This document shows positions 1 through 19,158 of a stretch of 64,000 nucleotides of DNA, piece by piece. This stretch comes from a bacterium (GTDB taxonomy: Bacteria > UBP15 > UBA6099). Under the pieces are notes generated by a model. It was not told where the DNA came from and did not search any database. It was given only the letters and a program-made list of their open reading frames with translations. The translations under genes and the position numbers were made by a program. Location of the stretch: the NCBI GenBank assembly GCA_029564595.1, contig JAKQPS010000005.1, positions 1-64,000 of the forward strand, in the 5' to 3' direction. Position 1 is the first letter of the stretch. Each line of letters begins with the position of its first letter.

Positions 1-78
1 TGTCTGCAATCCCAGATTCGTGAGCCTGAGATTGTTCATTCCTATCAATGAACTTATGTTGGTGTTCACTACAGTCAT
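1..78 (-). CDS. Flagellin, N-terminal fragment cut by window edge
   Basis: The first 26 codons of a fourth flagellin gene lie here, starting at the ATG whose complement ends at base 78. They read MTVVNTNISSLIGMNN and continue RLTNLGLQT, almost identical to the start of the flagellins at 1219 and 2360. A Shine-Dalgarno GGAGG sits about nine bases upstream. The gene leaves the window at base 1, so its length cannot be judged. It is the most downstream visible member of the array and has the same 310-base structured spacer ahead of it as its upstream neighbour. It is certainly the start of a flagellin; whether it is intact is unknown. Confidence 0.93.
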   Translation of the reverse strand, partial: MTVVNTNISSLIGMNNLRLTNLGLQT

Positions 79-388
79 TTTTCAGTCCTCCATCCATTTG
101 GAAGTGATGTTACCGGGTCTCCATACCCGGGCCTTGCCCCCTAGCCGGCCCTATCGGGTTCCCTCGTCGCGCGCCGCGCGACGGCTCGGGTTTCGTCAGC
201 CGTAATGACCGTTGCCTTCCTTCCGGCTATTGCTCCGGAAACCACCCTGTTCCAACAGGCTTTTCAGCGTTCGGTCTTTCCGCTTCTGTTTCCGATTGCC
301 GGTCGTTCCGGCAAATCAGTCATTCTTCCTCCTATCGCTCCCCTTCGCGGGAAGCGAAAACCACCGCGCAGTAATCCCGCACGGCTGA
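79..388. repeat. Structured flagellin spacer, copy 1
   Basis: This spacer of about 310 bases is nearly the same as the block at 1220-1532. Over the 255 bases nearest the downstream start codon I count nine substitutions. It is a string of inverted repeats: CCGGGT/ACCCGG (113-130), CGTCGCGC/GCGCGACG (165-183), TTCCGG/CCGGAA (221-240), CCTGT/ACAGG (246-259), TTGCCGG/CCGGCAA (296-314) and an imperfect one near 336-356. Four of the nine substitutions fall in the loop of the 221-240 hairpin and leave its stem intact. No sigma-28 box is visible, and no hairpin is followed by a T-run. It could be a processed intercistronic mRNA structure, a set of rho-independent-like barriers, or a leader controlling translation. 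Confidence 0.8.
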
Positions 389-1219
389 CTACTTCAATAG
401 CTGCAGAATGCTCTGCGGCTGGGCGTTGGCCTGAGCAAGAATCGCCGTTCCGCTCTGTTGGAGAATCTGAAGGCGGGTGAACTCGCTGATCTCCACCGCC
501 ATGTCGGCGTCCAATATTCTGCTCTTCGCGGCCGAAATGTTGATGTCGGCGGCTTTTAGGTCGTCGATGATGTAGTTGAGCCTGCGCTCCTGTATGCCCA
601 AACTCGAGCGAACGTCAGAAATCACATTGATGGCGTCCTGCACGGCTGAGATCGCGCCTTGCGCGTCTACTGCCGTTGACAATGTCACTGCGCCCTGATC
701 AATTCCGAGATCCGTGTCGGCGAGAGCTGTGATGACAATTGAAAGCCTGTAGTTCGCATCGTTGTCCGCGCCTACTTGTAAAACGAGGCCGCTGAAGTCT
801 CCGTTGAACAATGCTTTCGTGTTGAATGTGACCGCTTCCGATTTGCGGTTTATTTCGTCCGCAAGACTGCTGAATTCGTCGTTCAAGCGCTGCAGGTCCG
901 CCGAGGTCAGCGTGGCTTCGTTGGAAGCGCGGACCGCGAGGTCGCGCATCCTCATCAGGATGTCGTGCGTGGCGGCCAGAGAGCCGTCCGCCGTGCGGAT
1001 CAGGTTGATCCCGTCTTCCGCATTCTGCACCGCGGTCCTGATTCCGCCTATCTGCGCTTCCATCCCCTTGGCGATGGCAAGCCCGCTCGGATCGTCCGCC
1101 GCCCAGTTGATTCTCAGTCCGGACGACAGTCTCGCGAGCGATGTCTGCAATCCCAGATTCGTAAGTCTGAGATTGTTCATTCCTATCAATGAACTTATGT
1201 TGGTGTTGATTACCGTCAT
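389..1219 (-). CDS. Flagellin (276 aa), array member A
   Basis: This is a compact flagellin, the filament subunit exported through the flagellar type III apparatus. The conserved N-terminal helix (ending SGLRINWAADD, where many flagellins have INSAADD) and the C-terminal helix (AVEISEFTRLQILQQSG, ending SILQLLK) form the D0/D1 core. Only about 70 variable residues lie between, so the surface D2/D3 domains are essentially missing. Start is ATG with a GGAGG site nine bases upstream. It differs from member B mainly in the central part (about residues 140-200), as expected of paralogues whose termini are held constant for packing. It follows member B after a structured spacer and is probably co-transcribed with it. 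Confidence 0.96.
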   Translation of the reverse strand: MTVINTNISSLIGMNNLRLTNLGLQTSLARLSSGLRINWAADDPSGLAIAKGMEAQIGGIRTAVQNAEDGINLIRTADGSLAATHDILMRMRDLAVRASNEATLTSADLQRLNDEFSSLADEINRKSEAVTFNTKALFNGDFSGLVLQVGADNDANYRLSIVITALADTDLGIDQGAVTLSTAVDAQGAISAVQDAINVISDVRSSLGIQERRLNYIIDDLKAADINISAAKSRILDADMAVEISEFTRLQILQQSGTAILAQANAQPQSILQLLK

Positions 1220-1532
1220 TTTTCAGTCCTCCATCCATTTGGAAGTGATGTATCCGGGTCTCCATACCCGGGCCTTGCCCCCAAGCCGGCCCTATCGGGT
1301 TCCCTCGTCGCGCGCCGCGCGACGGCTCGGGTTTCGTCAGCCGTAATGACCGTTGCCTTCCTTCCGGCAGCTTCTCCGGAAACCGCCCTGTTCCAACGGG
1401 CTTTTCAGCGTTCGGTCTTTCCGCTTCTGTTTCCGATTGCCGGTCGTTCCGGCAAATCAGTCATTCTTCCTCCTATCGCCCCCCGGTTCGGGAAGCGAAG
1501 AACCACCGCGCCGTTAAAACCTAACGGCTGGG
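1220..1532. repeat. Structured flagellin spacer, copy 2
   Basis: This is the second copy of the hairpin-rich spacer, lying between flagellins B and A. All stems of copy 1 are present. In the CCTGT/ACAGG hairpin a single A-to-G change turns one pair into T-G: a wobble if the plus strand is read, but a C-A mismatch in the flagellin-sense RNA. The last 60 bases next to member B differ from copy 1 and carry a separate hairpin at 1510-1528. The shared period (78 to 1219, 1141 bases) shows that spacer plus flagellin were duplicated as one unit. Confidence 0.8.
1510..1528 (-). terminator. Hairpin just after flagellin B
   Basis: A perfect seven-base inverted repeat, GCCGTTA and TAACGGC with a five-base loop, starts four bases after the stop codon of flagellin B. 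No T-run follows on the flagellin strand, so it may slow RNA decay or partly terminate rather than act as a full intrinsic terminator. It is absent from the equivalent place after flagellin A. Confidence 0.45.
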
Positions 1533-2360
1533 CTAACTCAACAGCTGCAGAATGCTCTGCGGCTGGGCGTTGGCCTGAGCGAGGATCGCCGTTCCGCTCT
1601 GCTGGAGAATCTGAAGGCGGGTGAACTCGCTGATCTCCACCGCCATGTCGGCGTCCATAATCCTGCTCTTTGCGGCTGAAATGTTGATGTCGGCGGCCTT
1701 AAGGTCGTCGATGATGTAGTTGAGCCTGCGCTCCTGTATGCCCAGATTCGATCGAACGTCGGATACTATGTCGATTGCGGACTGAACAGCAGTGATAGCA
1801 GCTTGGGCGTTTGCCAAATTCGTCAAATTGTCGGCGAGTCCAAGTCCCGCAACGGATGAAAGCGTCTGAATGGTCACAGTCAACTGGTAAGTGCCGGCGT
1901 TGTCCGCGCCGATCTGAAGCACCTGTCCTGCGGCGTAATCGCCGTTGAAAAGGTTCTTCGTGTTGAAAGTGACCGCGTCGGCTTTCCTGTCTATTTCTGC
2001 GACCAAGCTCTGAAACTCGTCGTCGAGCCTAGTCAGATCCGCCGAAGTCAGAGTTGCTTCATTGGCTGCGCGGACGGCCAAGTCCCGCATCCTTAGAAGT
2101 ATCTCGTGTGTCGCGGCGAGCGAACCGTCCGCCGTGCGTATCAGGTTGATTCCGTCTTCCGCGTTCTGCACCGCGGTCCTGATCCCGCCAATCTGGGCTT
2201 CCATCCCCTTGGCGATGGCCAATCCGCTCGGATCGTCCGCCGCCCAGTTGATTCTCAATCCGGATGACAGTCTCGCAAGCGATGTTTGTAATCCCAGATT
2301 TGTAAGTCTGAGATTGTTCATCCCGATTAATGAACTGATATTGGTGTTGATTACTGTCAT
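1533..2360 (-). CDS. Flagellin (275 aa), array member B
   Basis: This is a second complete compact flagellin. The N-terminal 130 residues and C-terminal 80 residues match member A almost residue for residue, including INWAADDPSG and LGIQERRLNYIIDD. The middle (NLFNGDYAAGQVLQIG onward to about residue 200) differs. Start is ATG with GGAGG about ten bases upstream. Unlike members A and 0 it is preceded by a 582-base, unrelated and more AT-rich spacer. It builds the filament with its paralogues; several near-identical flagellins may give a mixed or staged filament, which is inference. Confidence 0.96.
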   Translation of the reverse strand: MTVINTNISSLIGMNNLRLTNLGLQTSLARLSSGLRINWAADDPSGLAIAKGMEAQIGGIRTAVQNAEDGINLIRTADGSLAATHEILLRMRDLAVRAANEATLTSADLTRLDDEFQSLVAEIDRKADAVTFNTKNLFNGDYAAGQVLQIGADNAGTYQLTVTIQTLSSVAGLGLADNLTNLANAQAAITAVQSAIDIVSDVRSNLGIQERRLNYIIDDLKAADINISAAKSRIMDADMAVEISEFTRLQILQQSGTAILAQANAQPQSILQLLS

Positions 2361-2942
2361 AGAGCCTTACCTCCGTCCCTGTAAGGGTAAGTTTGAGCCG
2401 AAAAACCGAACTTCCATATTCGGCTGGAGCGGATGCATTCCTCTCCAATCCCTCCTGAACTTGCTTATCTATCACCCCCCGTTATATTTATATACTCATT
2501 CCATAAATTCTTTATTTGGTTGCGACCATTCACGGCATGCGAAATATGTATATAACGCCCTGACATCGAAGGATAACCAAGATGTTCCATCTCGCTTCGC
2601 CCCTCTGAGCCGAATGTTTCGCAGGCCTCAAATAGACCATTTTTCCAATCTGTTTTGTCCTTAAATCTTCGCTGCTATTTCCTCCGACGCGTTTTTTTCT
2701 CCCGTAAAACTCTTTTCTCTAATATCTCGGCCATAAAAAAACCGAGAAGAATCAAACTCGCGCAACTCCTCCCGGTTAACTAATCGAAGCAATCCGCTAG
2801 GTCGCCACCGCCACGGATGTTTGTTGATTATCTCAAGGACTCATAGCCACATCCCTTTTCCCCAAGCTTTGTTCTATTAATCTATGCTATTATGTCTCCG
2901 GCTGCCGATTTGTCCCTGTGCAGCCGATTCCGCGCTTATGAG
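2361..2942. other. Long spacer between flagellins C and B
   Basis: No convincing gene lies in these 582 bases. The part next to flagellin B holds an AT-rich stretch (about 2480-2520) and an inverted repeat AGCCGAA/TTCGGCT near 2396-2426 in the predicted leader. CGGCTGC/GCAGCCG (about 2898-2926) lies just after the stop of flagellin C and could be a weak terminator. TCTCGG/CCGAGA flanks an A-rich loop near 2725-2747. The spacer does not resemble the repeated 310-base blocks. Confidence 0.6.
2465..2490 (-). promoter_or_regulatory. Degenerate sigma-28-like site before flagellin B
   Basis: On the minus strand TAAA and GATAA are separated by 17 bases, one fewer than in the classical FliA promoter, and the GCC before GATAA is not kept. 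It is placed about 100 bases upstream of flagellin B. This is a weak match and is offered only because the array otherwise shows a single good sigma-28 site. Confidence 0.22.
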
Positions 2943-3779
2943 CTATTTCAGAAGCTGCAACACACTCTGAGGCTGAGCGTTGGCCTGAGCCAAGATTGCG
3001 GTTCCGCTCTGCTGGAGAATCTGAAGGCGGGTGAACTCGCTGATCTCCACCGCCATGTCTGCGTCGTATATCCGGCTTTTTGCGGCGGAAATATTTATGT
3101 CGGCGGCTTTCAGATCGTCTATGATGTGCCCCAGACGCCTCTCTTGTATTCCCAGATTCGCGCGAAGATCAGATATAATATTCAGCGCGCTCTGCACAGC
3201 GTCTATCGCATCCTGCGCTGCGCCCACAGAAGTCGTCTCAATCCCTACGGTGAGCATTATCTGGCTCGCGGACAACGTGGGGATAAACACTGAAAGCTGC
3301 ATCACCCCGCCAGCCATGTTGTCAGGGCCGATCTGAAGGACGAGTCCCGCGCTGAATGTTCCGTTAAACAAAGTCTTTGTGTTGAATGTCACAGCTTCCG
3401 ACTTCCTGTCCAACTCGTCCTTCAAGCTCTGGAACTCGTTGTCGAGCCTAGTCATGTCGGCTGAGGTCAAAGTGGCTTCATTCGCCGCTCGCACCGCAAG
3501 ATCCCTCATTCTCAGGAGGATATCCTGCGTTTCGCTCAATGAGCCGTCAGCCGTGCGGATCAGGTTGATTCCGTCTTCGGCGTTCTGCACCGCGGTGCGA
3601 ATGCCGCCTATCTGCGCTTCCATCCCCTTGGCAATGGCAAGCCCGCTAGGGTCGTCTGCGGCGTGGTTGATTCTCAGGCCTGAAGACAACCTTTCCAGCG
3701 ACGTCTGCAACCCGAGATTAGTCAACCTCAAGTTGTTCAAACCAATAAGTCCGGAAATGTTTGTGTTTACTACCGACAT
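2943..3779 (-). CDS. Flagellin (278 aa), array member C, promoter-proximal
   Basis: This is the first flagellin of the array in the direction of transcription. It is more diverged than A and B: it has INHAADDPSG and LGHIIDD where the others have INWAADD and LNYIIDD. The coiled-coil termini (NTNISGLIGLNNL at the start, AILAQANAQPQS near the end) are intact. The open frame extends 22 codons further upstream, but the ATG at 3779 is chosen because GGAGGA lies seven bases ahead of it and the protein then begins MSVVNTN like its paralogues. The predicted sigma-28 start site near 3844 would leave a leader of about 65 bases. Confidence 0.96.
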   Translation of the reverse strand: MSVVNTNISGLIGLNNLRLTNLGLQTSLERLSSGLRINHAADDPSGLAIAKGMEAQIGGIRTAVQNAEDGINLIRTADGSLSETQDILLRMRDLAVRAANEATLTSADMTRLDNEFQSLKDELDRKSEAVTFNTKTLFNGTFSAGLVLQIGPDNMAGGVMQLSVFIPTLSASQIMLTVGIETTSVGAAQDAIDAVQSALNIISDLRANLGIQERRLGHIIDDLKAADINISAAKSRIYDADMAVEISEFTRLQILQQSGTAILAQANAQPQSVLQLLK

Positions 3780-3850
3780 CGTGGTTTCCTCCATGATCAA
3801 ATATTCGGGCATCCATGCCCTTTGAACCGCTTGCGCGATTCTCAATTACT

Positions 3851-3877
3851 TTATCGTCAACGAAAGATTAAACTTGA
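3851..3877 (-). promoter_or_regulatory. Sigma-28 (FliA) promoter of flagellin array
   Basis: The minus strand reads TCAAGTTT, an 11-base spacer, then GACGATAA. The enterobacterial FliA consensus is TAAAGTTT-N11-GCCGATAA, so 14 of 16 positions match with exact spacing. It lies about 72 bases upstream of the flagellin C start codon. It implies class-3 (late) flagellar control by FliA; FliA and FlgM themselves are not in the window. Confidence 0.85.
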
Positions 3878-4211
3878 GCGTTTTTCGGATTTATATGAAA
3901 ACATTGTCATAAATTGCGGCGAGGCATGGTTCCACTCCTCCGCACAACCGGGCTTATACGCTAAAATAAAGGTGGACAGGCCGCCAGTTTAGAAATATCT
4001 TTTTTATTAAAGGAATATATTCATTTTCTTTCTTCCCTCGAAGATTTTTCATGAAAATTTATCGGCGCTCATTACAAATAACTAGAATATATTTATAATC
4101 ATTGATATTAAATGATATCTTTATATGATGATGGTCAGCAAGACAATTTAAGAATATAGACTAAGTTGATTTTGCCAATTTTATGTGAGCACACGTGGCG
4201 AGCGCTGATAA
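3878..4211. other. AT-rich divergent spacer
   Basis: This spacer lies between the divergent flagellin array and the histidine-kinase operon. It is clearly more AT-rich than the genes around it, especially 4010-4180. A short inverted repeat TCATT/AATGA lies near 4100-4116. No clear sigma-70 promoter for the kinase could be fixed, and the kinase ATG has only a weak ribosome site (GGCGAG). Confidence 0.5.
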
Positions 4212-6575
4212 ATGAAAAAATCTATCGCTTTTAAAATCTCTTCAACGCTTCTATTTGTTGTGCTCGTATCATCGGCAATAATGGGTTATATAAGAATAGA
4301 CACCTTTAAGAATACGATGTTTGTGATGATTCAGGAACAGGGCATTCAAGACGCCTTAATGACCGCCGCAATGATGAGCGACAATTATGAAAACGGGAAA
4401 TTCGATATCAATAAATCCAATCCTTGTATTCATTATTCGCTTCAAGCGAACGGATACATCACAAAATGCTCTATAGTTGATAAAAACTCTGAATATTTAT
4501 ATGAATCAGGACAGAATTCTGGAGACTCTAGGCTCCATTTCCCTCAAGCTGAAAAAGCGTTGAAGATTTGGCAGAAAGGCGGTTCCGAGCCATTCCATTT
4601 ATGGATGTCCGGAGCCGACGGAAAAAGTTACAATCTACGAATCCTCGCTCCGATAATAAAAGACGATTCCTACATAGGCTCGGTTGAGCTTCTCCTGTCG
4701 ACGTCCCGTTTCTGCCATTCCGTTATGGACCTGTGGAAAAGATACGCCGCGGTGATTTTTATTTTAATGGTTGCCATCATGGGCCTGTTTGTAATTCTAA
4801 TACGACGGGCATTAAAGCCTCTAAAGCTTCTTGACAAAGCCATCGAGAGCCTGAACGCGGGAGACAAGACGGAAAAGCTCAGTATTCATTCCGGAGACGA
4901 AATCGAGTCTCTAGCGGCTAATATAGACAACCTGATGGACAACTGGCAGAAGTTGATCGGAGAACGCGAACAACAGAGAAACGAAGCTCTATCACAGAGC
5001 CGATTCAATGACGCGGTGGTTCAGAACATCGCCAACGGCATAGTCGTTTTAGACAATGCCGGACGAATGGTTAAGATCAATAAGTCTGCTGAAGCAGTCT
5101 TAGGTTTCCGCGTTGATAATATCTTGAACAAACCCTTTGATGAACTTTTTCCCGGATGGGAAGGAGAAGACTGCGCTCGCGTTCTAAAAACCGTTCTCGG
5201 CAAAGGCGAGCCTTATTCCAACGAACGCGTGTATTTCAAATCCCCTTTCAATAATCGCGAAGTAGTCTTTAATATCAACATAAGGCCGTTTTTTGACAAC
5301 AACAATCACCTTCAGGGAGCAATCGCTCTTTTTGAGTTTCTTACGGATAAGGTGATATTAGAAGAACACCTTTTAAGAACAAATGAGGAATTGAAACGAG
5401 CGAACCAGATAAAATCCGATTTCCTTTCCACTGTGTCCCACGAGCTTAGAACCCCCCTTACTCTGATAAAAATGTATACTTCCATGCTTGAAGACAAAAA
5501 ACTGGGGGAAATGAATGAGAAACAGGCAAAAGCGGTAGAGGTAATGAGCAGAAGGTGCAAAAATCTCAACGACCTCATAGACGACCTGCTGGATTTGTCC
5601 CGCATTGAATCAAGAAGGATGGAGTTAAACTTGGAGGCTGTCTCTCTTAAATCGATACTTAATGAGATTCAGTCGATATTCCTGCCGAGGATAAATCCTG
5701 AAAGAATACTCTTTTCTGTTGCGGCAGATCCGGACATGCCCGATGTTTTCTGCGACCGCGACAAGATCGTTCGCGCGCTGAACAACCTTGTGGAAAATGC
5801 CGTCAAGTTTACTGAGAGCGGAAGCATAGAGATATGGGCCGCGCCGGACGAAACCACTCCGGCAATGGCTCGGATATGCGTCAAGGACACCGGCAGAGGC
5901 ATCCCGGAAGAACAACAGGAGCAGGTGTTTGAAAAATTTTATCAGGTCGACGGCTCAAATGACCGCCGCTTCGGCGGTATCGGCCTAGGTCTTTCCATAG
6001 CGCGGGATATCATTATCCTTCACGGCGGCCACCTGTGGCTGCAAAAAAGCAAAGAGGGAGAAGGCAGTTTATTCTGCTTCGCAATCCCATTCCACACGGG
6101 AGAAAAAGACGCGCGAAACGAGTTCTTCCAAACCGGAGACGAAAAAACCGGGCCAGAGAAGAAACTTGTTTTAACAGAATCGTCTCAGCGAGACCCGCTT
6201 CAGAAAGCCGCCGTCCTCATTATCGACGACGACCCGGACTTTATTGACGTGATGAAAGACATTCTTGAGGATGACGGCTTCGAGGTTTCCACATCTTCGA
6301 CCGGCGCGGACGCCTTCCCTGCTCTATTCTCCGGTAAAATATTTGACGTTATATTGCTAGACGTGGCGATGCCCGGCATGACAGGATACGAAGTATGCCG
6401 CGCGCTCAAGTCATTTGAAACGACTAAGGACATACCTGTCGTCATGTTAACCGCCGCCGGTCAGTCCGAACAAGTTTCGGCGGGGTTTGAGGCAGGCGCG
6501 GCAAGCTACCTTGTTAAACCTTTCGATCTGAGCAACTTCAGAAAAACTCTCGACAGAGTTTTAGGAGGGAAATAA
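4212..6575 (+). CDS. Hybrid sensor histidine kinase/response regulator
   Basis: A membrane-bound hybrid kinase of 787 residues. In order: membrane helix (about 8-27), external sensor region (28-174), second membrane helix (about 177-197), HAMP linker (198-250), PAS domain (about 262-375), dimerisation helix with phospho-acceptor His410 in STVSHELRTPL, ATPase domain with N box (NNLVENAVKF), G1 DTGRGIP and G2 GGIGLGLSI, and a C-terminal receiver with acidic pocket Asp672-674, phospho-acceptor Asp717 in LLDVAMP and Lys769. Signals would pass from His410 to Asp717 in cis and then to an unlinked partner, since no output domain follows. Its stop is one base from the Hsp20 start codon, so kinase, chaperone and Lon are probably one mRNA, suggesting a stress input. 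Confidence 0.94.
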   Translation: MKKSIAFKISSTLLFVVLVSSAIMGYIRIDTFKNTMFVMIQEQGIQDALMTAAMMSDNYENGKFDINKSNPCIHYSLQANGYITKCSIVDKNSEYLYESGQNSGDSRLHFPQAEKALKIWQKGGSEPFHLWMSGADGKSYNLRILAPIIKDDSYIGSVELLLSTSRFCHSVMDLWKRYAAVIFILMVAIMGLFVILIRRALKPLKLLDKAIESLNAGDKTEKLSIHSGDEIESLAANIDNLMDNWQKLIGEREQQRNEALSQSRFNDAVVQNIANGIVVLDNAGRMVKINKSAEAVLGFRVDNILNKPFDELFPGWEGEDCARVLKTVLGKGEPYSNERVYFKSPFNNREVVFNINIRPFFDNNNHLQGAIALFEFLTDKVILEEHLLRTNEELKRANQIKSDFLSTVSHELRTPLTLIKMYTSMLEDKKLGEMNEKQAKAVEVMSRRCKNLNDLIDDLLDLSRIESRRMELNLEAVSLKSILNEIQSIFLPRINPERILFSVAADPDMPDVFCDRDKIVRALNNLVENAVKFTESGSIEIWAAPDETTPAMARICVKDTGRGIPEEQQEQVFEKFYQVDGSNDRRFGGIGLGLSIARDIIILHGGHLWLQKSKEGEGSLFCFAIPFHTGEKDARNEFFQTGDEKTGPEKKLVLTESSQRDPLQKAAVLIIDDDPDFIDVMKDILEDDGFEVSTSSTGADAFPALFSGKIFDVILLDVAMPGMTGYEVCRALKSFETTKDIPVVMLTAAGQSEQVSAGFEAGAASYLVKPFDLSNFRKTLDRVLGGK

Positions 6576-6576
6576 G

Positions 6577-6975
6577 ATGTTCGGCGACGACCCTTTCGAC
6601 CAAAAAAACTCAAACGGATCACCAACTTCTCTTTTTCCTGACTTTTCACAATATGCGCCTCATGGCGTTCATTGGATACCGCCTATTGATTTTTATGAAA
6701 CCGATTCCGAAGTTGTGGTAATAGCAGAGGTCCCCGGCGTCAAACCTGAAGATATTTCCATATCTTTCGATAAGGGCAAGCTGACAATAAAGGGGGTTAA
6801 GAGCCGGGTCTCCAGCATGCGCGGCCTGAGTTATTACTGTTTTGAAAGGACTTTCGGGAGTTTCGTGAGAACGTTCCCTGTGGTTTCCCCGGTGCATAAG
6901 AGTAAAATCGCCGCGACTTTCGACAACGGGACTCTCACCATTAAGTTGCCGAAGAAAAAAACTGAGAGAGCTTAA
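6577..6975 (+). CDS. Small heat-shock protein, Hsp20/alpha-crystallin
   Basis: A 132-residue ATP-independent holdase that keeps unfolding proteins soluble. The alpha-crystallin domain spans about residues 25-128, with the typical stretch AEVPGVKPEDISISF and a C-terminal strand TFDNGTLTIKLPK. The short N-terminal arm is rich in Phe and Pro. The ribosome site GGAGG lies inside the last codons of the kinase gene and the start follows its stop by one base, so translation is coupled. Four bases separate it from Lon, pairing a holdase with the protease that clears damaged proteins. Confidence 0.95.
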   Translation: MFGDDPFDQKNSNGSPTSLFPDFSQYAPHGVHWIPPIDFYETDSEVVVIAEVPGVKPEDISISFDKGKLTIKGVKSRVSSMRGLSYYCFERTFGSFVRTFPVVSPVHKSKIAATFDNGTLTIKLPKKKTERA

Positions 6976-6979
6976 AACT

Positions 6980-9418
6980 ATGAGCGACGACTCTTCAACC
7001 AGAGAAGATTTTAAAGAAATCCCTGAAACAATGCCAGTGATTCCGTTGATCGGAACCATGATTTATCCGTTCATGGTCGTTCCGTATTTCGTTCAGGGCG
7101 AGAATAACGAAAAAGCGGTGGACGCCGCGATGGAAAACGACCACTACATATTTGCCGCAAGCGTAAGAAATTCAAGCTCCTCAAATAAAACGCCCGCAAA
7201 AGAAGACCTCTTTGAGGTTGGCGCGGTAGCTTCGATAATAAGGCTGATGCGGGTTCCGTCGGGCGGCATAAAAATCCTTGCGCAGGGACTTTTTAGAGCA
7301 AAAGCGTCTTCGCTGACCGATCACCCTTCGGGCTTCATCACAGCGAACGTTGAGCTTATTGAAGAATCTCCTGTCGAACCTTCCCCGGAACTGGAAGCTT
7401 TAATCAGAATCGTAAGGGAGCAGGTCCGCCGCGCGGTGAACTTGGGAAAACCTCTGCCTGAAGAATTCGTCCTGATGATCAATAAAATGGGCGAACCGGG
7501 CAAACTCGCCGACTTAATTTCATCCGCTTTCGACCTAAGCCCTGAAGAGTCTCAGTCGGCGCTGGAAGAATTCGACCCGCAGAAAAGACTCGCTTTCGTC
7601 TCTAAAGCGATAACGCGGGAACTTGAAATCCTTGAGATCCAGAACAAGATTAAAACAAATGTGCAGTCGGAAATGGAAGACAATCAAAAAAAGTATGTTT
7701 TGAAAGAACAGCTCAAAGCGATACAGAAAGAATTGGGACAGGATGATCCGCGCAAATCCGAAATCGACGAGCTTCGCAGAGCGATTTCTGAAGCAAAGAT
7801 GTCCGATACCGCTGAAAAGCAATCTCTAAAAGAACTCGAACGTCTTGAAAGAATGCATCCCGACGCGGCGGAGGCCAACGTCATCCGGACATATATCGAC
7901 TGGATGCTGGCTCTGCCGTGGAACAAATCCACAAAAGACAGGATAGACCTCGACCGGGCGCGAAAAATCCTTGATGCAGACCATTACGGTTTGGAAAAGG
8001 TGAAAGACCGGATAATAGAGGCTCTCGCGGTCCGGAAATTGAAGCCGGACGCCAGAAGCCCGATAATTTGTTTTGTGGGGCCTCCGGGAGTGGGAAAAAC
8101 CTCTCTAGGCCAATCGATAGCGCGCGCCATAGGACGCAGCTTCGTCAGGTTTTCAGTCGGCGGCGTGAGAGACGAGGCCGAGATTCGAGGCCATCGGCGC
8201 ACTTATGTGGGGGCCCTCCCCGGTCGAATTGTCAACGGTTTGAAGACCGCCGGCTCGAAAAACCCTGTCTTCATGATCGATGAAATAGACAAAATCGGCT
8301 CCGACTACAGAGGAGACCCATCGTCAGCGCTACTCGAAGTGCTCGATCCCGAACAAAACAACTCCTTCGCCGATCACTACCTTGATGTCCCCTTTGATCT
8401 TTCTCAAGTCATGTTCATTACAACAGCCAACATCTTGGACACCATTCCCGGCCCGCTGCGCGACAGGATGGAAGTGATACACATTCACGGCTACACCGAG
8501 GATGAAAAGCTTAACATAGCCGTCAGATATCTTATTCCGCGTCAGTGCGAAGCTTCGGGGCTGGACAATAAAAAAGTCAGGTTCCTCAAGCATGCCGTAC
8601 AGAGCATAATCGGAGGATACACTCGAGAAGCCGGCGTCAGGAATCTAGAGAGAGAAATAGGAAAAATATGCAGAAAAATCGCGACAAGAGTCGCTAAAGG
8701 GTCAAGAATAAAATCTTTCACAGTCGCCGCAAGCGATGTGGTCAAATACCTCGGCCCCCCGCGAGCCGAAATATCGTCCCGCAGAAAACGCGACCAGATA
8801 GGAGTCGTCAACGGATTGGCATGGACGCCTTCCGGCGGCGAGACGCTCACAATCGAAGCGATCGTAATGGACGGCAAAGGAAAACTGACTCTGACAGGCC
8901 AGCTTGGAGATATTATGAAGGAGTCCGCACAAGCCGCTTTAAGCTACGCGCGCAGCAGAGCGAACGACTTCGGATTCGCCCCCGACAACGTCGATAAAAA
9001 AGACATCCACATCCATGTGCCTGCGGGAGCGATACCGAAAGACGGCCCGTCAGCGGGAGTGGCAATGTTCACCGCGCTTCTTTCGGCTTTCACAAGAAAA
9101 CCTGTCCGCCGCGACGTTGCTATGACCGGAGAGATTTCTCTTCGCGGGGCCGTTTTGCCCATCGGCGGACTTAAACAGAAGCTTCTGGCCGCGCGAAGAG
9201 AAGGCATCAAAACCGTTCTGGTTCCTTTGTCGAACAAAAATGATATTTCAGATATGGATTCCCGAGATATCGGATACTTAGAGATTAAATATCTGGAATT
9301 CGTGGATGATATTCTTCCTTATGTGTTCAGGGATGGCGGAGCGAAGACAGCAAAAACAGCGAAAACAGAAGTGAAAAAGAAGGCTTCGGCTCTAAAATCG
9401 AAAAAGACAAAAAACTAA
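6980..9418 (+). CDS. lon: ATP-dependent protease Lon (LonA type)
   Basis: An 812-residue cytosolic LonA protease that unfolds and degrades damaged and regulatory proteins. It shows the N-terminal substrate domain (about 15-210), a coiled-coil segment (about 220-300), the AAA+ module with Walker A GPPGVGKTS (367-375) and Walker B FMIDEID (431-437), and the Ser-Lys protease domain with Ser691 in KDGPSAG and Lys732 in GGLKQKLL. Length is normal for the family apart from an extra C-terminal tail of about 25 residues rich in Lys, Ala and Thr (from about 788). It is third in the kinase-Hsp20-Lon operon. Confidence 0.98.
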   Translation: MSDDSSTREDFKEIPETMPVIPLIGTMIYPFMVVPYFVQGENNEKAVDAAMENDHYIFAASVRNSSSSNKTPAKEDLFEVGAVASIIRLMRVPSGGIKILAQGLFRAKASSLTDHPSGFITANVELIEESPVEPSPELEALIRIVREQVRRAVNLGKPLPEEFVLMINKMGEPGKLADLISSAFDLSPEESQSALEEFDPQKRLAFVSKAITRELEILEIQNKIKTNVQSEMEDNQKKYVLKEQLKAIQKELGQDDPRKSEIDELRRAISEAKMSDTAEKQSLKELERLERMHPDAAEANVIRTYIDWMLALPWNKSTKDRIDLDRARKILDADHYGLEKVKDRIIEALAVRKLKPDARSPIICFVGPPGVGKTSLGQSIARAIGRSFVRFSVGGVRDEAEIRGHRRTYVGALPGRIVNGLKTAGSKNPVFMIDEIDKIGSDYRGDPSSALLEVLDPEQNNSFADHYLDVPFDLSQVMFITTANILDTIPGPLRDRMEVIHIHGYTEDEKLNIAVRYLIPRQCEASGLDNKKVRFLKHAVQSIIGGYTREAGVRNLEREIGKICRKIATRVAKGSRIKSFTVAASDVVKYLGPPRAEISSRRKRDQIGVVNGLAWTPSGGETLTIEAIVMDGKGKLTLTGQLGDIMKESAQAALSYARSRANDFGFAPDNVDKKDIHIHVPAGAIPKDGPSAGVAMFTALLSAFTRKPVRRDVAMTGEISLRGAVLPIGGLKQKLLAARREGIKTVLVPLSNKNDISDMDSRDIGYLEIKYLEFVDDILPYVFRDGGAKTAKTAKTEVKKKASALKSKKTKN

Positions 9419-9457
9419 CCTGTCCAAGTTCCGATTCATGGATAGGGTTGCCTCTGA

Positions 9458-9943
9458 TTACAATCTTATAATTTCGCCTGTGATACTTTTTCCATTCAGC
9501 GTTAGGATGCCCACAGAAAAAAACGGAGCGAACCGACGGTCTGTCGGAGAACCCGGGTTGAACATGAGCGCGCCCGCCACGGAACTGTTGAAAGGCTGAT
9601 GAGAATGACCGAAAACCACGCACGAGACTGATTCATCGAACTGGGTCCGCGCCCGAATAGGCAAATCTCCCGGAGCGCCCCAGCCGTGGATAAGCCCTAT
9701 CTTAATATTTCCGATTTCAATGATTCGCTTGTCTGGAAGATTTGCGGATTCGCCGCTATCCATATTCCCGCGCACGGCCTTTACAGGGGCGACAACCTCC
9801 AACTCCTCGAGAACGCTCATATCCACAATGTCCCCTGCGTGCAGAATCATATCCACGCCGGCAAAAGCGGCGACCGCGCTCGAAGGGAGCGCTCTAGCAG
9901 CCGTCGGCACGTGGGTGTCTGAAATCACGCCTATCTTCTTCAT
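9458..9943 (-). CDS. YfcE/MJ0936-type metallophosphoesterase
   Basis: A calcineurin-like phosphoesterase of about 161 residues. Metal ligands are seen in ISDTHVP (Asp, His), HAGDIVD (Asp), RGNMD (Asn), and the late GWGAPG and GHSHQP histidines. Such proteins hydrolyse phosphodiesters, often with little specificity. The open frame runs upstream into the PLD gene; I prefer the ATG at 9943, one base after that gene's stop and preceded by GGGCGGA, over the ATG at 9952 that overlaps it. It is last in a tight minus-strand group with two nuclease-like genes. Confidence 0.88.
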   Translation of the reverse strand: MKKIGVISDTHVPTAARALPSSAVAAFAGVDMILHAGDIVDMSVLEELEVVAPVKAVRGNMDSGESANLPDKRIIEIGNIKIGLIHGWGAPGDLPIRARTQFDESVSCVVFGHSHQPFNSSVAGALMFNPGSPTDRRFAPFFSVGILTLNGKSITGEIIRL

Positions 9944-9944
9944 C

Positions 9945-10490
9945 CTAATCATTCCGCCCGAACGGCGACTCCAGAGGAACCGGACACTGCCGTTTTCTAC
10001 CGCATTTTCGGCACATTTCTCCTGTCCATATCCGATCGTATTTGTCCGCAACAGTATCCATTATGCCGTCTTCATCCGTTAGAATGCCCATCTCGAAATT
10101 CCTTCTTGTCTGCCCTTTCATGCCCAAACCCGCGCCGGTGAAGTTGGCGCTCCCCATATACAACAGCTTGCTGTCAACCAACACGCATTTGAAATGAGTG
10201 CGGACGCATCTGCGCATATCGAAGAAACGGGAAAATTCAGGAGAAGCGCCGGCCTTCAATTCGTGAAGGATAGAGCCTGACGGCACGCCTGAATGCAGCA
10301 ACCTCACGGCAACGCGCCGCGAAGCAAGCTCCTTAAAAAAATCCATTGAGGATTCAACTTCATTCTCATTGACCGACATCATGAGGTTCTTTACGTTGGC
10401 TGTGGCGATCCACACCGAATGCCGCGCGCGCCTAAGCCCGCGCTCTATCACTTCGCTGTAGACCTCGTCATCCCGAAGAAGCTTCAGCAT
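9945..10490 (-). CDS. PLD-like nuclease with a single HKD motif and Cys tail
   Basis: A 181-residue phospholipase-D-like protein. There is one HxK(x)4D motif: His99, Lys101, Asp106, followed by GSANFTGAG, the typical PLD strand. Single-motif members act as dimers and are often nucleases. The C-terminus carries CRKCGRKRQC (Cys160, 163, 169), which could bind zinc or nucleic acid; a fourth ligand is not obvious. It overlaps the end of the upstream TatD gene by 23 bases and abuts the phosphoesterase gene, so the three are co-translated. No signal peptide is seen, so it should act in the cytosol. Confidence 0.82.
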   Translation of the reverse strand: MLKLLRDDEVYSEVIERGLRRARHSVWIATANVKNLMMSVNENEVESSMDFFKELASRRVAVRLLHSGVPSGSILHELKAGASPEFSRFFDMRRCVRTHFKCVLVDSKLLYMGSANFTGAGLGMKGQTRRNFEMGILTDEDGIMDTVADKYDRIWTGEMCRKCGRKRQCPVPLESPFGRND

Positions 10491-11286
10491 CCGCCGCTCC
10501 GATTTTCGATTGAAGGAAATCCGCTGCCGCTCCGCCGAACAAATCTATGGTATTTCGTGTGGAACAAACGGCAATGCTCTCCACGGTTTCATCTCGAATT
10601 TCAGCTATCTTCTCCGCTATGAGAGGAATATACGAAGGCTCGTTCCTTTTGCCGCGATGCCTCTGAGGCGCTAAAAACGGACAGTCAGTTTCGAGCAGCA
10701 GTCTTTCGGAGGGAACCGCTTTTAAAACCGACTGAAGGCGCGCGCTGTTGTTGTACGTCGCCGGCCCTCCTACCGAGATGTTCAAACCAAAATCGAGCGT
10801 CTGCTTCAGAAATTCGATGTCGCCGGAGAAGCAGTGCATGACGCCTTTCAAGGGAGCGTGCGCGCGGATCATGGACGCCATGTCGGCCTCTGCCTCGCGG
10901 CAATGAAAAATCAACGGCAACCCGCGCGCCGCGCAGAGCTCCAGTTGCTTTTCAAAGGAGTCCCGCTGTTTTTTCCTAGGAGCTATGTCCCTGAAATAAT
11001 CGAGGCCGAACTCTCCGACGCCTATATATCTTCCTTTGTATTCTTCGAGAAAATCCTCGAACGCGGGATGGTCGTATTTGGCGGCCTCGTGAGGATGAAA
11101 CCCCACGATTGGGAACACCATAGGGTATTTTTCAGAATTTGCGATTACCTGCTTATTCGTCGGTTCGTCGAGTCCGACATCGAAAACGGCCGCGACTCCG
11201 GCCTTTTCCGCCCGGCTCACAACTTCGTCTCTATCGTTGTCGTAATCCTTGAAAAAAATATGAGAATGAGTGTCTGCAAAAATCAT
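10468..11286 (-). CDS. TatD-family metal-dependent hydrolase (DNase)
   Basis: A 272-residue TIM-barrel amidohydrolase of the TatD family. Visible ligands and motifs: ADTHSHIF at the N-terminus, GEFGLDYF (metal-binding Glu), FHCREAE, MHCFSGD, and LLLETDCPFLAPQ with the catalytic Asp. Family members show 3'-5' exonuclease or DNase activity in repair and also RNA trimming. The length is normal. It is often downstream of metG in other genomes; here metG is 6 kb away. It heads the overlapping TatD-PLD-phosphoesterase group, which suggests a shared nucleic-acid processing role (inference). Confidence 0.93.
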   Translation of the reverse strand: MIFADTHSHIFFKDYDNDRDEVVSRAEKAGVAAVFDVGLDEPTNKQVIANSEKYPMVFPIVGFHPHEAAKYDHPAFEDFLEEYKGRYIGVGEFGLDYFRDIAPRKKQRDSFEKQLELCAARGLPLIFHCREAEADMASMIRAHAPLKGVMHCFSGDIEFLKQTLDFGLNISVGGPATYNNSARLQSVLKAVPSERLLLETDCPFLAPQRHRGKRNEPSYIPLIAEKIAEIRDETVESIAVCSTRNTIDLFGGAAADFLQSKIGAADAEASSG

Positions 11287-11310
11287 CTTAGTCTGCCCGG
11301 AACAGAGGGA

Positions 11311-11640
11311 CTATATCATGTCCGCGAACCGCTTCTCCGGTTCGGTTTTTTTCATTTCCCATTCGCCGACTCTAGGTTTATAAACAAGCTGAACCGGCCC
11401 GTATTCCTTCAAATCCACAAGAAAATGATCTTCCACTTCATAGTTGTCCAAGTGAGTAATCTTTCTCCTGTAAACGAGCATCCCCACTTCATAATTCCTT
11501 CCGTTCATGATAACTCTGCGAGGCGTTTCTCCCGCTTTGTAACCCGCGTAAGCCTCGACTTGAACTTTTTCTCTATCCGCGTCAGCCGCCATATATGTCT
11601 CCATAGAAAAACGTTTATTTTCTTTGGTAAAAACTGTCAA
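11311..11640 (-). CDS. Small protein of unknown function
   Basis: I do not recognise this 109-residue protein. It is predicted soluble and rich in beta strand and charged residues, with no signal peptide, membrane helix or Cys motif. The stretch VGMLVYRRKITHLDNYEVEDHF followed by VDLKEYGPV looks like a small barrel or SH3-like fold, but this is only a secondary-structure impression. The longest start is TTG at 11640, directly after the cupin stop (TGATTG); an ATG at 11604 lacks a ribosome site. It lies 24 bases before TatD, so it is probably in the same operon. Confidence 0.6.
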   Translation of the reverse strand: MTVFTKENKRFSMETYMAADADREKVQVEAYAGYKAGETPRRVIMNGRNYEVGMLVYRRKITHLDNYEVEDHFLVDLKEYGPVQLVYKPRVGEWEMKKTEPEKRFADMI

Positions 11641-12000
11641 TCATTTCCCGCAAGCTGCGCCGCCGGATTGAACGATAGGCACTAGACACATCACCCTAAG
11701 AAGCGTCCCGCCGGTATTTCTGAACTGGTGCAGTTCTCCTCCCGGCACGAACACGGCGTCCCCCGCCTTCGCCCGCTTGGAGCCTTCGGCGCTTGTCGCC
11801 TCGCACTCCCCTTCCAACACATAAACCTCATGTTCCCAGTCGTGCGTGTGCAAGGGAGTGTATCCGCCGGGTTGGATGTCGAATATGCGCATCGCGAAAG
11901 TCGGAGCTCCGTCGTTTCCATCAATCACCCATCTGACTTCCGTCCCCTCGACTCCTTCAACCTTCTGCGGAACTACCGACATAGCGTTCTTGATTATCAT
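11641..12000 (-). CDS. Cupin-domain protein
   Basis: A 119-residue single-domain cupin. The first cupin motif gives metal ligands in LHTHDWEHEVYVLEGE and the second has GELHQF, so the three-His, one-Glu site is complete. Small cupins of this kind include isomerases, dioxygenases and sugar-binding regulators, and the substrate cannot be told. The open frame starts upstream, but ATG 12000 has GGAGAGAG five bases ahead and starts the conserved part. It lies between a GH1 glycosidase and the small unknown protein on the same strand. Confidence 0.88.
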   Translation of the reverse strand: MIIKNAMSVVPQKVEGVEGTEVRWVIDGNDGAPTFAMRIFDIQPGGYTPLHTHDWEHEVYVLEGECEATSAEGSKRAKAGDAVFVPGGELHQFRNTGGTLLRVMCLVPIVQSGGAACGK

Positions 12001-15177: not shown

Positions 15178-16620
15178 TTATCCGTTGTGTTTTTTTCGTT
15201 TGACGATATATCCTGCGAATTGCAGTCCCGCTTTGAACCAGTAAGCGGCCTCTCGTGGATTTTTCAATCTTCCCAACCTTCGCAATATGTAGCTAGGCCG
15301 CATATAGAACTCTCTGAGGATGCGGCTTTGCAGTTCCTGAAGGCGCTGTGCGGAAACGGTTTTTGTTCTGGTGATTGAGTCGCCCTGAAACGACCTTCCA
15401 TAGTCGCTCCATTTCAGATTGTCTTCAAGCAGCCCGGCCTCTTTCATCATAAGGTTCAATTCCGAACCCGGATACGGCGACGCGATGGCTACCGTTATCA
15501 GGTCAGGATCGAGAACGCGGATGAAAGAGCGGGTCGCCTCAATGTCGGACTCCGTTTCCTCCGGGTGGTTGCCCACCATGAAGAACGCGCAGGACATCAT
15601 TCCCGCTTTGCGGGTCCACTTGAACGCCTTAGTCGCCTGCTCAAGAGTTATTCCCTTCTTGATGAGTTCGAGAATGCGCGGACTTCCAGTTTCCACCCCG
15701 AACGCCACTTTGACGCATCCCGAATCCGCCATTATCCGCAACAGTTCCTCGTCAACGCGATCCACTCTGGTGTCGCAATCCCATGTGACGTCCAATCTTT
15801 TTATGCCTTCGCAGAACTCCAAAGCCTTTTCCCTGTCATGCGTGAAAGTGTCGTTGTCTATCGTGAAGTGGTTGACGCCGTGCCGCTCTACGCAATCCAG
15901 AGCCTCTTCCATAACTTTGTGCGTCGGCCTATGCCGCACCTTGCGACCGAATACATGTTCAGAGCAGCAGAACACGCACCTTCCAGCGCATCCTCTGGCA
16001 GTGAAAAGTTGCGTCGCATTGTAAACCCCGCCGGGCAATCCCGGCGTCGGCGCTCCGCGATACGACCGCATGCGCAATAGGTCTCTGGCGGGCAGCGGAA
16101 GATTTTCAAGGTCAACAGGTTTCTGGGGCGTTCCTCCATCGAGAATATCGCCGCCGGACGACAACACAGTCCCGGCGATCTCCGAATCCGCGAACCGCCC
16201 CTGTTCGACGGCTCGGCATATCTCGACGAAAGAAATCTCTCCCTCTCCCCTCACGGCGGCGTTGAATTGCGGATACTTAATGAGGGTCTCGCGCGCAAGA
16301 ATCGAAGCGTGCGCGCCACCCAGCGCCGTTATAGCATGCGGAAGCGATTGTTTTGCTATTGCTGCGAGTTCCGCCGCGGCGTCCACCGTTGGAGTCATCG
16401 CCGTAAACCCGATTACCTTTGCGTTTGACGAAGATATCCTCCTTGCAAAATCTATATGTGAGAGAGGCTCCGACTCTAAATCGATGATTTCAGGCGCAAA
16501 TCCGTCCTGTCTGGCCGCCGCCGCCAACAGACATAGATTTATCGGATGCTGCAAAGCATGCGAATGCTCCTGCTTCATAATGCTAGGAGGTCTGACCAGC
16601 AATACTTTCATATTTGCCAT
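15178..16620 (-). CDS. B12-binding radical SAM protein
   Basis: A 480-residue radical SAM enzyme. Residues 1-140 form a cobalamin-binding-like Rossmann domain (IGFTAMTPTVDAAAEL, ALGGAHASI). The radical SAM domain has the cluster motif GCAGRCVFCC (C-x3-C-x2-C) near residue 210, followed by FTIDNDTF and FGVETGSPRIL. The C-terminal helical part is like that of the BchE/P-methylase/anaerobic cyclase class. These enzymes methylate unreactive carbons or do ring chemistry in lipids, cofactors and natural products; the substrate here is unknown. ATG 16620 has GGAAAG upstream. It runs convergent to the FecR gene, downstream of hypA. Confidence 0.9.
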   Translation of the reverse strand: MANMKVLLVRPPSIMKQEHSHALQHPINLCLLAAAARQDGFAPEIIDLESEPLSHIDFARRISSSNAKVIGFTAMTPTVDAAAELAAIAKQSLPHAITALGGAHASILARETLIKYPQFNAAVRGEGEISFVEICRAVEQGRFADSEIAGTVLSSGGDILDGGTPQKPVDLENLPLPARDLLRMRSYRGAPTPGLPGGVYNATQLFTARGCAGRCVFCCSEHVFGRKVRHRPTHKVMEEALDCVERHGVNHFTIDNDTFTHDREKALEFCEGIKRLDVTWDCDTRVDRVDEELLRIMADSGCVKVAFGVETGSPRILELIKKGITLEQATKAFKWTRKAGMMSCAFFMVGNHPEETESDIEATRSFIRVLDPDLITVAIASPYPGSELNLMMKEAGLLEDNLKWSDYGRSFQGDSITRTKTVSAQRLQELQSRILREFYMRPSYILRRLGRLKNPREAAYWFKAGLQFAGYIVKRKKHNG

Positions 16621-16659
16621 AGACTTTCCAATGCTTTGAAACGAAAAATAAGAACACTG

Positions 16660-17007
16660 TCAATCGGCAACTTCTATGCTGTCCACAAAAAGTTCGCGCC
16701 CGCTGACGATGTCCGTCTCGCCGCCGCCGCAAGCCGGACATGAGAATTCAACGGAAACAACATCGAAAACATTTCCGCATGCGGCGCAGGATGCGGTCAC
16801 GGGAGCGACTTCGAAGTCAAGCTCAGCCCCCTCCATCCGGGTTCCTTCAACCAGCATATCGAAGTAATGCCTGACGCAATCGGGCACGACCGCAGTGAAT
16901 CCGCCCACGACGATTTTGACGCGGAGAACGCGAGGGTTGCCCCCGCCTTCGACCCGCGCTTCGTCAACAACCTTCACAAGTTCCTGAGTAATGGAAAATT
17001 CGTGCAA
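16660..17007 (-). CDS. hypA: HypA/HybF nickel-insertion protein
   Basis: A 115-residue HypA. It delivers nickel to [NiFe]-hydrogenase, and in some bacteria to urease. The start is TTG, which matters because Met1-His2-Glu3 is the nickel-binding N-terminus and no ATG gives it; GAGAGG lies about nine bases upstream. The zinc knuckle is CAAC and CPAC, two CxxC pairs about 17 residues apart. HypB and HypC-F, usually next to it, are absent from the window, and neither a hydrogenase nor a urease gene is seen. It lies between metG and the radical SAM gene, 45 bases after metG. Confidence 0.94.
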   Translation of the reverse strand: MHEFSITQELVKVVDEARVEGGGNPRVLRVKIVVGGFTAVVPDCVRHYFDMLVEGTRMEGAELDFEVAPVTASCAACGNVFDVVSVEFSCPACGGGETDIVSGRELFVDSIEVAD

Positions 17008-17052
17008 AGTTCCGAGCCTCTCGGACGATGCCGCCTTATGGTCGCGCGCGGC

Positions 17053-19158
17053 TTAACTGATTCTCGACCCTGCCGCCGCCGGCCCATCCGGACTGAGAAC
17101 AATTATCCTGTCCGACTCTCCTCCGGCAAGAACCATTCCCTGCGATTCATGTCCCATAATTTGTTTCGGCTCTAGATTTGCCACTACGACGACATCTTTT
17201 CCGACAAGCTGTTCCGGTTCATAGAACTTGGCGATGCCCGCCACAATCTGCCTTTTCTCGACGCCGATGTCCACTATTAGCTTAAGCATCTTATTCGAGC
17301 CTTGCAGCTTTTCGGCCTCTACTACTCTTGCCACTCTCAAGTCCAATTTTGCGAAGTCATCGAACACGATGTTCTTCTTCACGCCCGGAATTGACGCGGA
17401 TTTTTTCTTTCGGTCTTTGCCGCTCTTTGAGGCTATAGCCTCAAGTTTTTTCTTTTCTTCTTCGATCTGCGCTTTCTCAATCCTAGTGAAAAGTATCTCC
17501 GGCTCCGGCAGAGTCGCCCCGTCGGCAAGAATATCTTTCGACGCTTCCTCCCACCGGACATCTCTCGCCCGGCCTTTCAGCCCCAGCATCGACCATATTT
17601 TCTGCGCGGTGTCAGGAACGAAAGGCGACGAAATTACAGCCATCGTTTTTATCAGCTTCAGACATAGTCTTATCGTGGCATCCGCGTCCGCCCGGTTTGA
17701 CGTCAGAGCCTTCCACGGCTCTTTGGCGTCGAAATATTTGTTCCCGGCGCGAGCCAGATCAAGCATCGCGGCCAGAGCGTTGCGGAACTCGAAACGATCT
17801 ATGAACCCGCCTACCGCGCCGGGAGCCGCTTCAATGGCTGCGACAATTTCAGCGTCGGCAGAAGCGCTCGAATCGACAAGCGGCGGAACCCTGCCGTCCA
17901 TCTTAGAGGCGACGAACTTAAGCGTTCTATTCACCAGATTTGCGTATATGTTGGTAAGTTCGCTGTTGTGCGCCGCCATGTATCTGTCCCACTGGAACTC
18001 CGAATCGGAGTTCTCGGGCATATCGGCGCAGAGATAGTATCGAATTGAATCCGTCGGGTACTTCTCCATGAATTCAATGACGTCGATATACCAGCCGGCG
18101 CTTTTTGAAAACTGTCTGCCTTCGAGATTCAAGAACGCGTTCGACGCCACAAAATCGGGAATCTTATATCCCTGCCGCATGCGTTCGAGCATTATGGGGA
18201 AAATTATCGCGTGAAACGGGATGTTGTCTTTTCCTATGAAATGATAGAGTTTGCAATCCGGGTTCTGCCAGTAATCGCGCCAGCGGTCGGGCGATTCCCC
18301 GATGCTCTGAAAATATTCAACGGTAGACGAGATGTAGCCGATCGGAGCGTCGAACCACACGTACAACACTTTCCCATCCGCCTCGTCGAGCGGAACCGGC
18401 ACTCCCCAGTCGAGATCCCGCGTTATCGCCCTGCTTTCAAGCCCGCGTTTGAGATATCCCCGCACCTCGGTGGTGACAAGCTGTTTCCACTTCAATCCGT
18501 CCTCGCCGCTTTCTTTCCGGGAGAGCCACTCCTCCAGCCATTCCGCCCGCGAACCTAGATTCAGATACCAATGCGTCGTCTTCCGCGATTCTGCGGCCGT
18601 TCCACAATCCTTGATGTTGCACCTCGGATTCTTTAATTCGTGAGTCTCAAGCATGACCCCGCATTTACCGCACTCGTTTCCCCATGCGTCCGGAAACCCG
18701 CAATGCGGACATTCTCCCCTTACATACCTATCAGCCAGATACTTTTCATGCTTCGGGCAGTAAAGCTGCTCTCCTTCTTTCTTGTCTATCATTCCGTTTT
18801 CCAGCAGCCTCGCGAAAAACTCCTGAGAAATTGGGTAGTGGAGTTTTCGGGACGTGCCGGAAAAATTCGTAAAATCGATATTCATGCGCTCGAATATTGA
18901 AACAATCAAATCATGATTTATCTTCACATGCTCCTCAGGGGAGCGGCCGGCGGCCTCTGCTGAAATCGTGATAGCCACCCCGTGGTCGTCCGTCCCGCAC
19001 ACGTAAATGATGTCCGCTCCGTTCATCTTTTTATAACGGACAAAAATATCTGCGGGCAGATACGCGCCGGCGATGTGGCCGAAATGTATCGGCCCGTTCG
19101 CGTATGGCAAAGCGCTCGTAACTATGATTTTCTCTTTTGCCGATCCCGAAGAACTCAT
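17053..19158 (-). CDS. metG: Methionyl-tRNA synthetase with EMAP-like tail
   Basis: A 701-residue class I synthetase charging tRNA-Met in the cytosol. It has HFGH (25-28, the HIGH motif), a zinc region with CPKH...CPHC...CGKC knuckles (about 135-165), QFSKSAGWY (the KMSKS equivalent), the helical anticodon domain, a Lys-rich linker (about 580-600), and a C-terminal tRNA-binding domain (LDLRVARVVEAEKLQGSNK, GIAKFYEPEQL) of the Trbp111/EMAPII type. FSKS in place of KMSKS is seen in many MetG proteins. Start ATG 19158 has GGGAG eight bases upstream. Length is usual for the two-knuckle form. Confidence 0.98.
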   Translation of the reverse strand: MSSSGSAKEKIIVTSALPYANGPIHFGHIAGAYLPADIFVRYKKMNGADIIYVCGTDDHGVAITISAEAAGRSPEEHVKINHDLIVSIFERMNIDFTNFSGTSRKLHYPISQEFFARLLENGMIDKKEGEQLYCPKHEKYLADRYVRGECPHCGFPDAWGNECGKCGVMLETHELKNPRCNIKDCGTAAESRKTTHWYLNLGSRAEWLEEWLSRKESGEDGLKWKQLVTTEVRGYLKRGLESRAITRDLDWGVPVPLDEADGKVLYVWFDAPIGYISSTVEYFQSIGESPDRWRDYWQNPDCKLYHFIGKDNIPFHAIIFPIMLERMRQGYKIPDFVASNAFLNLEGRQFSKSAGWYIDVIEFMEKYPTDSIRYYLCADMPENSDSEFQWDRYMAAHNSELTNIYANLVNRTLKFVASKMDGRVPPLVDSSASADAEIVAAIEAAPGAVGGFIDRFEFRNALAAMLDLARAGNKYFDAKEPWKALTSNRADADATIRLCLKLIKTMAVISSPFVPDTAQKIWSMLGLKGRARDVRWEEASKDILADGATLPEPEILFTRIEKAQIEEEKKKLEAIASKSGKDRKKKSASIPGVKKNIVFDDFAKLDLRVARVVEAEKLQGSNKMLKLIVDIGVEKRQIVAGIAKFYEPEQLVGKDVVVVANLEPKQIMGHESQGMVLAGGESDRIIVLSPDGPAAAGSRIS

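Follow-up and report, generated by a model that had tools for sequence, protein, structure and literature searches.

A predicted CsrA-FliW leader hairpin before tandem flagellin genes in an uncultured bacterial phylum

A flagellin array and its repeated spacers

The window, by which we mean the whole stretch of 64,000 nucleotides analyzed here (contig JAKQPS010000005.1, positions 1 to 64,000), begins inside an array of flagellin genes encoded on the minus strand. It holds flagellin 1 (278 aa; 2943-3779), flagellin 2 (275 aa; 1533-2360), flagellin 3 (276 aa; 389-1219), and flagellin 4, of which 78 nt from the start of the gene lie within it (1-78, with the start codon at 76-78). A terminator-like hairpin with a T tail follows flagellin 1 (2740-2777, minus strand). 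Because the flagellins lie on the minus strand, each of the two spacers in this array forms the 5' leader of the flagellin gene that follows it. Spacer copy 1 (79-388, 310 nt) combines the 5' leader of flagellin 4 with the 3' flank of flagellin 3, and copy 2 (1220-1532, 313 nt) combines the 5' leader of flagellin 3 with the 3' flank of flagellin 2, both on the minus strand.

Window positions 1-115 exactly match the end of contig C79 (L033:6829-6943), on which flagellin 4 continues, and this places the spacers between flagellins 2 and 3 and between flagellins 3 and 4. On C79, flagellin 4 is followed by a terminator-like hairpin and then by mutS2, which we read directly and named from our reading of its protein sequence. 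Contigs C154 and C79 both end in the same 115 nt, such that the assembly breaks within the flagellin array, and the number of spacer copies is therefore a minimum. Flagellins 2, 3, and 4 are probably co-transcribed as a tandem set. The organism's own genome contains the spacer only as two copies plus the contig end, and the sister genome (G001) contains one copy. A dispersed repeat was rejected, as matches in other genomes spanned little sequence and lay close to the chance level, the best of them (in G009) at 3.5e-4. Searching window positions 1-12000 against Rfam returned no matches at E ≤ 1.

The original prediction described the two spacers as near copies with nine substitutions over 255 bases, four of which fall in the loop at 227-234 of a TTCCGG/CCGGAA stem, and took their near-identity as a sign of selection. 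The description was accurate in its coordinates and counts: the copies are 93.5% identical overall, exactly nine substitutions fall in the first 255 bases, and the four loop changes are located at 228, 229, 230, and 232. The inference from near-identity to selection was not supported by comparison with the sister genome. The orthologous spacer of G001 is 94.2% identical to copy 1 and 95.5% identical to copy 2, and neighboring DNA is 96.1% (mutS2) and 95.1% (flagellin 4-mutS2 intergenic region) identical between the same genomes. Since the spacer differs between species as much as the DNA around it, near-identity of the copies is no evidence of selection.

Identity is uneven along the repeat unit. 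In 60-nt windows, identity between units is mostly 90-100% across the spacer and into the 5' portion of the flagellin gene, falls to 55-76% in the middle of the gene, and then returns to 91-100%. High identity at the spacer and gene ends with low identity in the middle fits gene conversion or recent duplication. The difference between flagellin middles and ends (window 389-2360 and L033:6094-6906) suggests either gene conversion or a diversifying exposed domain.

A conserved hairpin beside the start codon

The last ~50 nt of each spacer hold a 6-bp hairpin with the hexaloop AUGGAG, followed by a GGAUGGAGG Shine-Dalgarno (SD) sequence, and these two elements account for about 50 of the 310 nt. 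The hairpin reads CCGGGU-AUGGAG-ACCCGG in both copies (113-130 and 1254-1271, minus strand) and is a predicted upstream CsrA site (BS1). Sections of PMC7652899 describe the CsrA/RsmA target as an ANGGAN hexaloop together with a GGA at the SD. Both spacers have such a second GGA at the SD (AUGGAUGGAGG). The SD can also fold with AUGGA in its loop, as CUUCCA-AAUGGA-UGGAGG in copy 1 (87-104, minus strand) and likewise in copy 2 (1228-1245, minus strand), giving a predicted second CsrA site (BS2) over the SD. The leader of flagellin 2 carries the hairpin AGCCGAAU-AUGGAA-GUUCGGUU (2404-2425, minus strand), and that of flagellin 1 carries the 4-bp hairpin GGGC-AUGGAU-GCCC (3807-3820, minus strand). 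Some leaders (L042, L034, and the window at 2360-2425) show a hint of a second fold, in which the AGCCG that forms the 5' arm of the CsrA hairpin would pair instead with a CGGCU further downstream.

The comparison set comprised 29 distinct leaders from seven genomes of the candidate phylum, each belonging to a close flagellin (at least 75% identical at the N terminus). At 70% identity, these leaders grouped into 16 clusters. The ANGGAN motif was noticed first and then tested on these same leaders. In 25 of the 29 leaders, the region from -80 to -20 contains an ANGGAN hexaloop whose stem forms at least 5 of its 6 pairs, as compared to 0.24 expected from dinucleotide shuffles. Of the other four leaders, three form 4 pairs and L045 forms none, with an 8-bp SD hexaloop hairpin in its place. 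The hairpin is only 4 bp in flagellin-1 leaders. The conserved loop begins 34-57 nt upstream of the start codon, and a GGAGG-type SD follows it. GGAG occurs at -20 to -6 in all 29 leaders, and the distance from the loop GGA to the SD GGAG is 20-41 nt in 28 of them (31 nt in the spacers). We rejected placement of the SD within a hexaloop as a general rule, with only 3/29 leaders having this arrangement at a stem of at least 4 bp, in a stricter register that leaves the spacers uncounted.

Beyond the close flagellins, 8 of 19 leaders of distant flagellin-like genes have the hairpin (0.13 expected), and the same test did not find it before the csrA-adjacent flagellin-like gene in five genomes. Two of the 47 gene leaders within the window pass, and both belong to flagellins. 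Outside of these gene leaders, a 10-bp stem with an AUGGAA hexaloop occurs on the minus strand at window position 15401, perhaps by chance.

It had been proposed to align the spacers with those of related genomes and check for covariation, which proved positive for one hairpin, that beside the start codon. Across 27 hairpins, 93.8% of cells were paired (57.2% when shuffled) though every stem pair varies, and two-sided changes numbered 58 versus 15.4 in shuffles, with the best slid register reaching 46%. The 27 rows were chosen, leaving out flagellin-like leaders without an ANGGAN hairpin and imperfect ones such as L095 and L110. Because rows were picked for having the hairpin, the count across leaders carries less bias.

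We searched the organism's own 4.4-Mb genome with a 22-nt covariance model, scoring 150 of 1006 candidates. Six flagellin leaders ranked first of 11 matches, a partly circular outcome given that most of these top leaders had served to train the model. The C5 flagellin at 16458-17279 has a leader that the model missed. Among 20 further regions matched by the model, one belonged to a training flagellin, one was an untrained flagellin leader (G002:C30), and one lay far upstream of a flagellin match (G001:C375); no convincing gene start was found at the other 17. Four sites in G004 (C98:6603, C11:5936, C301:11149, and C218:2731) share a near-identical hairpin around GGGTACGGAGACCC off obvious gene starts, which is perhaps a dispersed repeat. 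A weak match was also observed between csrA and the flagellin-like gene at G000:C15:19441-19462, ~110 nt before the gene's match.

The proteins of the corresponding switch are encoded throughout the genome set. Each of the seven genomes has one CsrA above the family cut-off and a FliW adjacent to csrA, and a flagellin-like gene lies beside the fliW-csrA pair. Over its core, the organism's CsrA can be aligned with CsrA of solved structure, and it contains both Leu4 and Arg44, which are key RNA-binding residues. Its CsrA and FliW match solved CsrA and FliW, including an entry holding both (5dmb).

Our main reading, to which we assign a probability of roughly 0.8 on the basis of sequence comparison, is that the spacers are leaders of the next flagellin under CsrA-FliW control, with CsrA predicted to bind them. 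That the same hairpin precedes almost every related flagellin gene suggests that a familiar type of switch operates, in a variant layout, in a lineage new to it. Each spacer would serve as an untranslated leader for the flagellin that follows it in the tandem set, where a CsrA dimer would be expected to place one face on the ANGGAN hexaloop hairpin at about -46 and the other on the SD. Occupation of both predicted sites would block ribosome entry and presumably repress translation. FliW free of unsecreted flagellin would remove CsrA and thereby relieve the block, so that flagellins of the array would be translated only while the filament can be exported.

Structure and origin of the distal spacer

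The spacers had been described as strings of hairpins, and our scan found eight stems of at least 6 bp in copy 1 and nine in copy 2 on the sense strand. Folding of the sense (minus) strand exceeded dinucleotide shuffles with z-scores of -4.06 and -4.05, and the plus strand of copy 1 had a z-score of -2.98. Two-sided change was absent from all 95 predicted pairs across three whole-spacer sequences, with no covariation on either strand. GGA was not significantly enriched in the spacer (16 observed versus 12.8 expected from dinucleotide shuffles, p = 0.11). As predicted, neither spacer contains a sigma-28 box scoring above shuffles, and we found no sigma-70-like site within the spacers on either strand. 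One weak terminator-like match, at 363-385 with the tail GGTTTTCGCT, is confined to copy 1. From the selected, structured element initially envisaged, we retain a structured RNA probably acting on flagellin expression, but not near-identity as proof of selection.

A stem change that wobbles on the plus strand had been taken to allow an antisense RNA, with cruciform DNA as another possible form of the element. The change at 257/1398 does behave in this manner. However, two changes in the 335-357 hairpin family still permit G-U pairing in a minus-strand RNA but would be C.A mismatches in a plus-strand one, which leans the strand evidence toward a sense RNA. Furthermore, the plus strand folds more weakly, no promoter-like site was found on either strand, and the ANGGAN loop code is meaningful on the minus strand only. 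We found no evidence of a cruciform, and we consider an antisense or cruciform element highly improbable.

A second pattern distinguishes the leaders by their distal sequence. We counted a sigma-28-like box when at least 10 of 12 positions matched the consensus within -130, which occurred in 14 of the 29 leaders. None of these 14 has a distal AGGAGG, whereas 11 of the 15 leaders without a strong sigma-28 box do, including the spacers (minus strand, at 328-333 in copy 1, which is 255 nt upstream of the start codon, and at 1469-1474 in copy 2), the G001 orthologue, and flagellin-2 leaders. The difference is significant by Fisher's test across leaders (p = 5e-5) and across clusters (7/10 versus 0/6, p = 0.011), for a pattern that was noticed before it was tested and a chance AGGAGG expectation of 2.9/29. 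The leaders with neither element are L040, L041 (score 9 at -108), L045, and L046 (only 81 nt of sequence).

Eight of the 11 AGGAGG leaders could be aligned from AGGAGG to ATG, revealing a hairpin A and then the CsrA hairpin. In this alignment, in which MAFFT misplaced AGGAGG in some rows, 9 of the 16 pairs predicted show changes on both sides. Most leaders have a hairpin A pentaloop of AUGCA, AUGCG, AAGCG, or AAGCA, and the spacers would represent this layout stretched to 310 nt. The spacers retain the AGGAGG, the CsrA hairpin, and the doubled GGA, and we found no counterpart elsewhere to their ~200-nt middle. One tentative interpretation, which we think is well below an even bet, is that the clade has a second, undescribed leader type for flagellin genes inside arrays, whereby one polycistronic mRNA would act as its own CsrA sink. 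This type would be composed of a distal AGGAGG, a covarying hairpin A, CsrA hairpin B, and a GGA doubled at the SD, with no sigma-28 promoter.

Several rival explanations concern the distal sequence. The odds fall only slightly short of even that the distal ~230 nt are a recent duplicate, homogenized by gene conversion between the tandem flagellin units and functionless, with selection acting on the proximal CsrA leader alone. The copies are 6.5% apart, on the same scale as orthologues between species, the G001 spacer is closer to copy 2 than to copy 1, the identity profile resembles converted tracts, and the lack of two-sided change across the 95 predicted pairs agrees with this explanation. 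It accounts less readily for folding well in excess of shuffles (z about -4), for several stem changes that preserve pairing, and for two hairpins past the stop codon that vary in sequence and still fold. Alternatively, the distal hairpins may be processing or stability elements of the intercistronic mRNA, with the distal AGGAGG marking or protecting a processed 5' end. We regard this as a possible but doubtful explanation. It is consistent with the spacers lacking both a sigma-28 box and a good terminator, and with the distribution of AGGAGG among leaders with and without a strong sigma-28 box. The number of AGGAGG already expected by chance counts against it. The best-known stabilizer of this kind, the STAB-SD of Bacillus, depends on RNase J. 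None of the seven genomes has an RNase J reaching the family cut-off (TIGR00649), which leaves a STAB-SD role for the distal AGGAGG unsupported.

Translation of a short leader peptide, started at the distal AGGAGG, could also control the flagellin that follows. An AGGAGG-4nt-ATG arrangement and a putative 19-codon open reading frame (264-323 in copy 1, minus strand) are intact in all three spacers. Nevertheless, the sole difference between species in this reading frame alters an amino acid, other AGGAGG leaders have no consistent start or frame, and conservation of the short reading frame was not found past the three near-identical spacers. We consider such a peptide very improbable.

Relation to known CsrA switches

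The predicted leaders resemble that of Campylobacter jejuni flaA, for which sections of PMC4894983 describe two stem-loops upstream of the start codon, each with an ANGGA loop and the second lying at the ribosome-binding site, supported by structure-preserving compensatory changes, footprints, and measured CsrA binding, and with FliW antagonizing CsrA. Like flaA SL2, the SD of our spacers can fold into a hairpin with a GGA loop. The same sections quote 18 nt as the optimal site spacing and 21 nt for flaA. Unlike flaA and its 45-nt leader, the elements here are repeated in a tandem array with 310-nt spacers, and few leaders place the SD within a hexaloop. Bacillus subtilis hag has two CsrA sites, one over the SD (according to sections of PMC7652899), like the pair predicted here. 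The fliW-csrA pair with a flagellin-like gene beside it also recalls the Hag-FliW-CsrA switch, although B. subtilis has one hag gene and here the CsrA sites are predicted along an array. Some Leptospira flagellins (flaB) likewise have a GGA hexaloop near the start codon, with CsrA binding by gel shift, but the loop is described in sections of PMC8668096 as 6-7 nt before the start codon, much nearer than the upstream loops observed here. CsrB/RsmZ sponge RNAs are also hairpin strings with GGA, whereas most distal hairpins here have no GGA in their loops and the spacer is not enriched for it. Our search of the open-access literature returned no report on flagellin leaders of this phylum among the matches listed.

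Taken as comparative evidence, these results extend the CsrA-FliW flagellin switch to an uncultured phylum. They also supply about two dozen natural hairpins, divergent from one another, on which the features recognized by CsrA could be tested. What began as a string of hairpins becomes a testable model of post-transcriptional co-regulation across a flagellin gene array. If the second leader type is real, a polycistronic flagellin mRNA with several CsrA sites would set the number of flagellin kinds that are made together.
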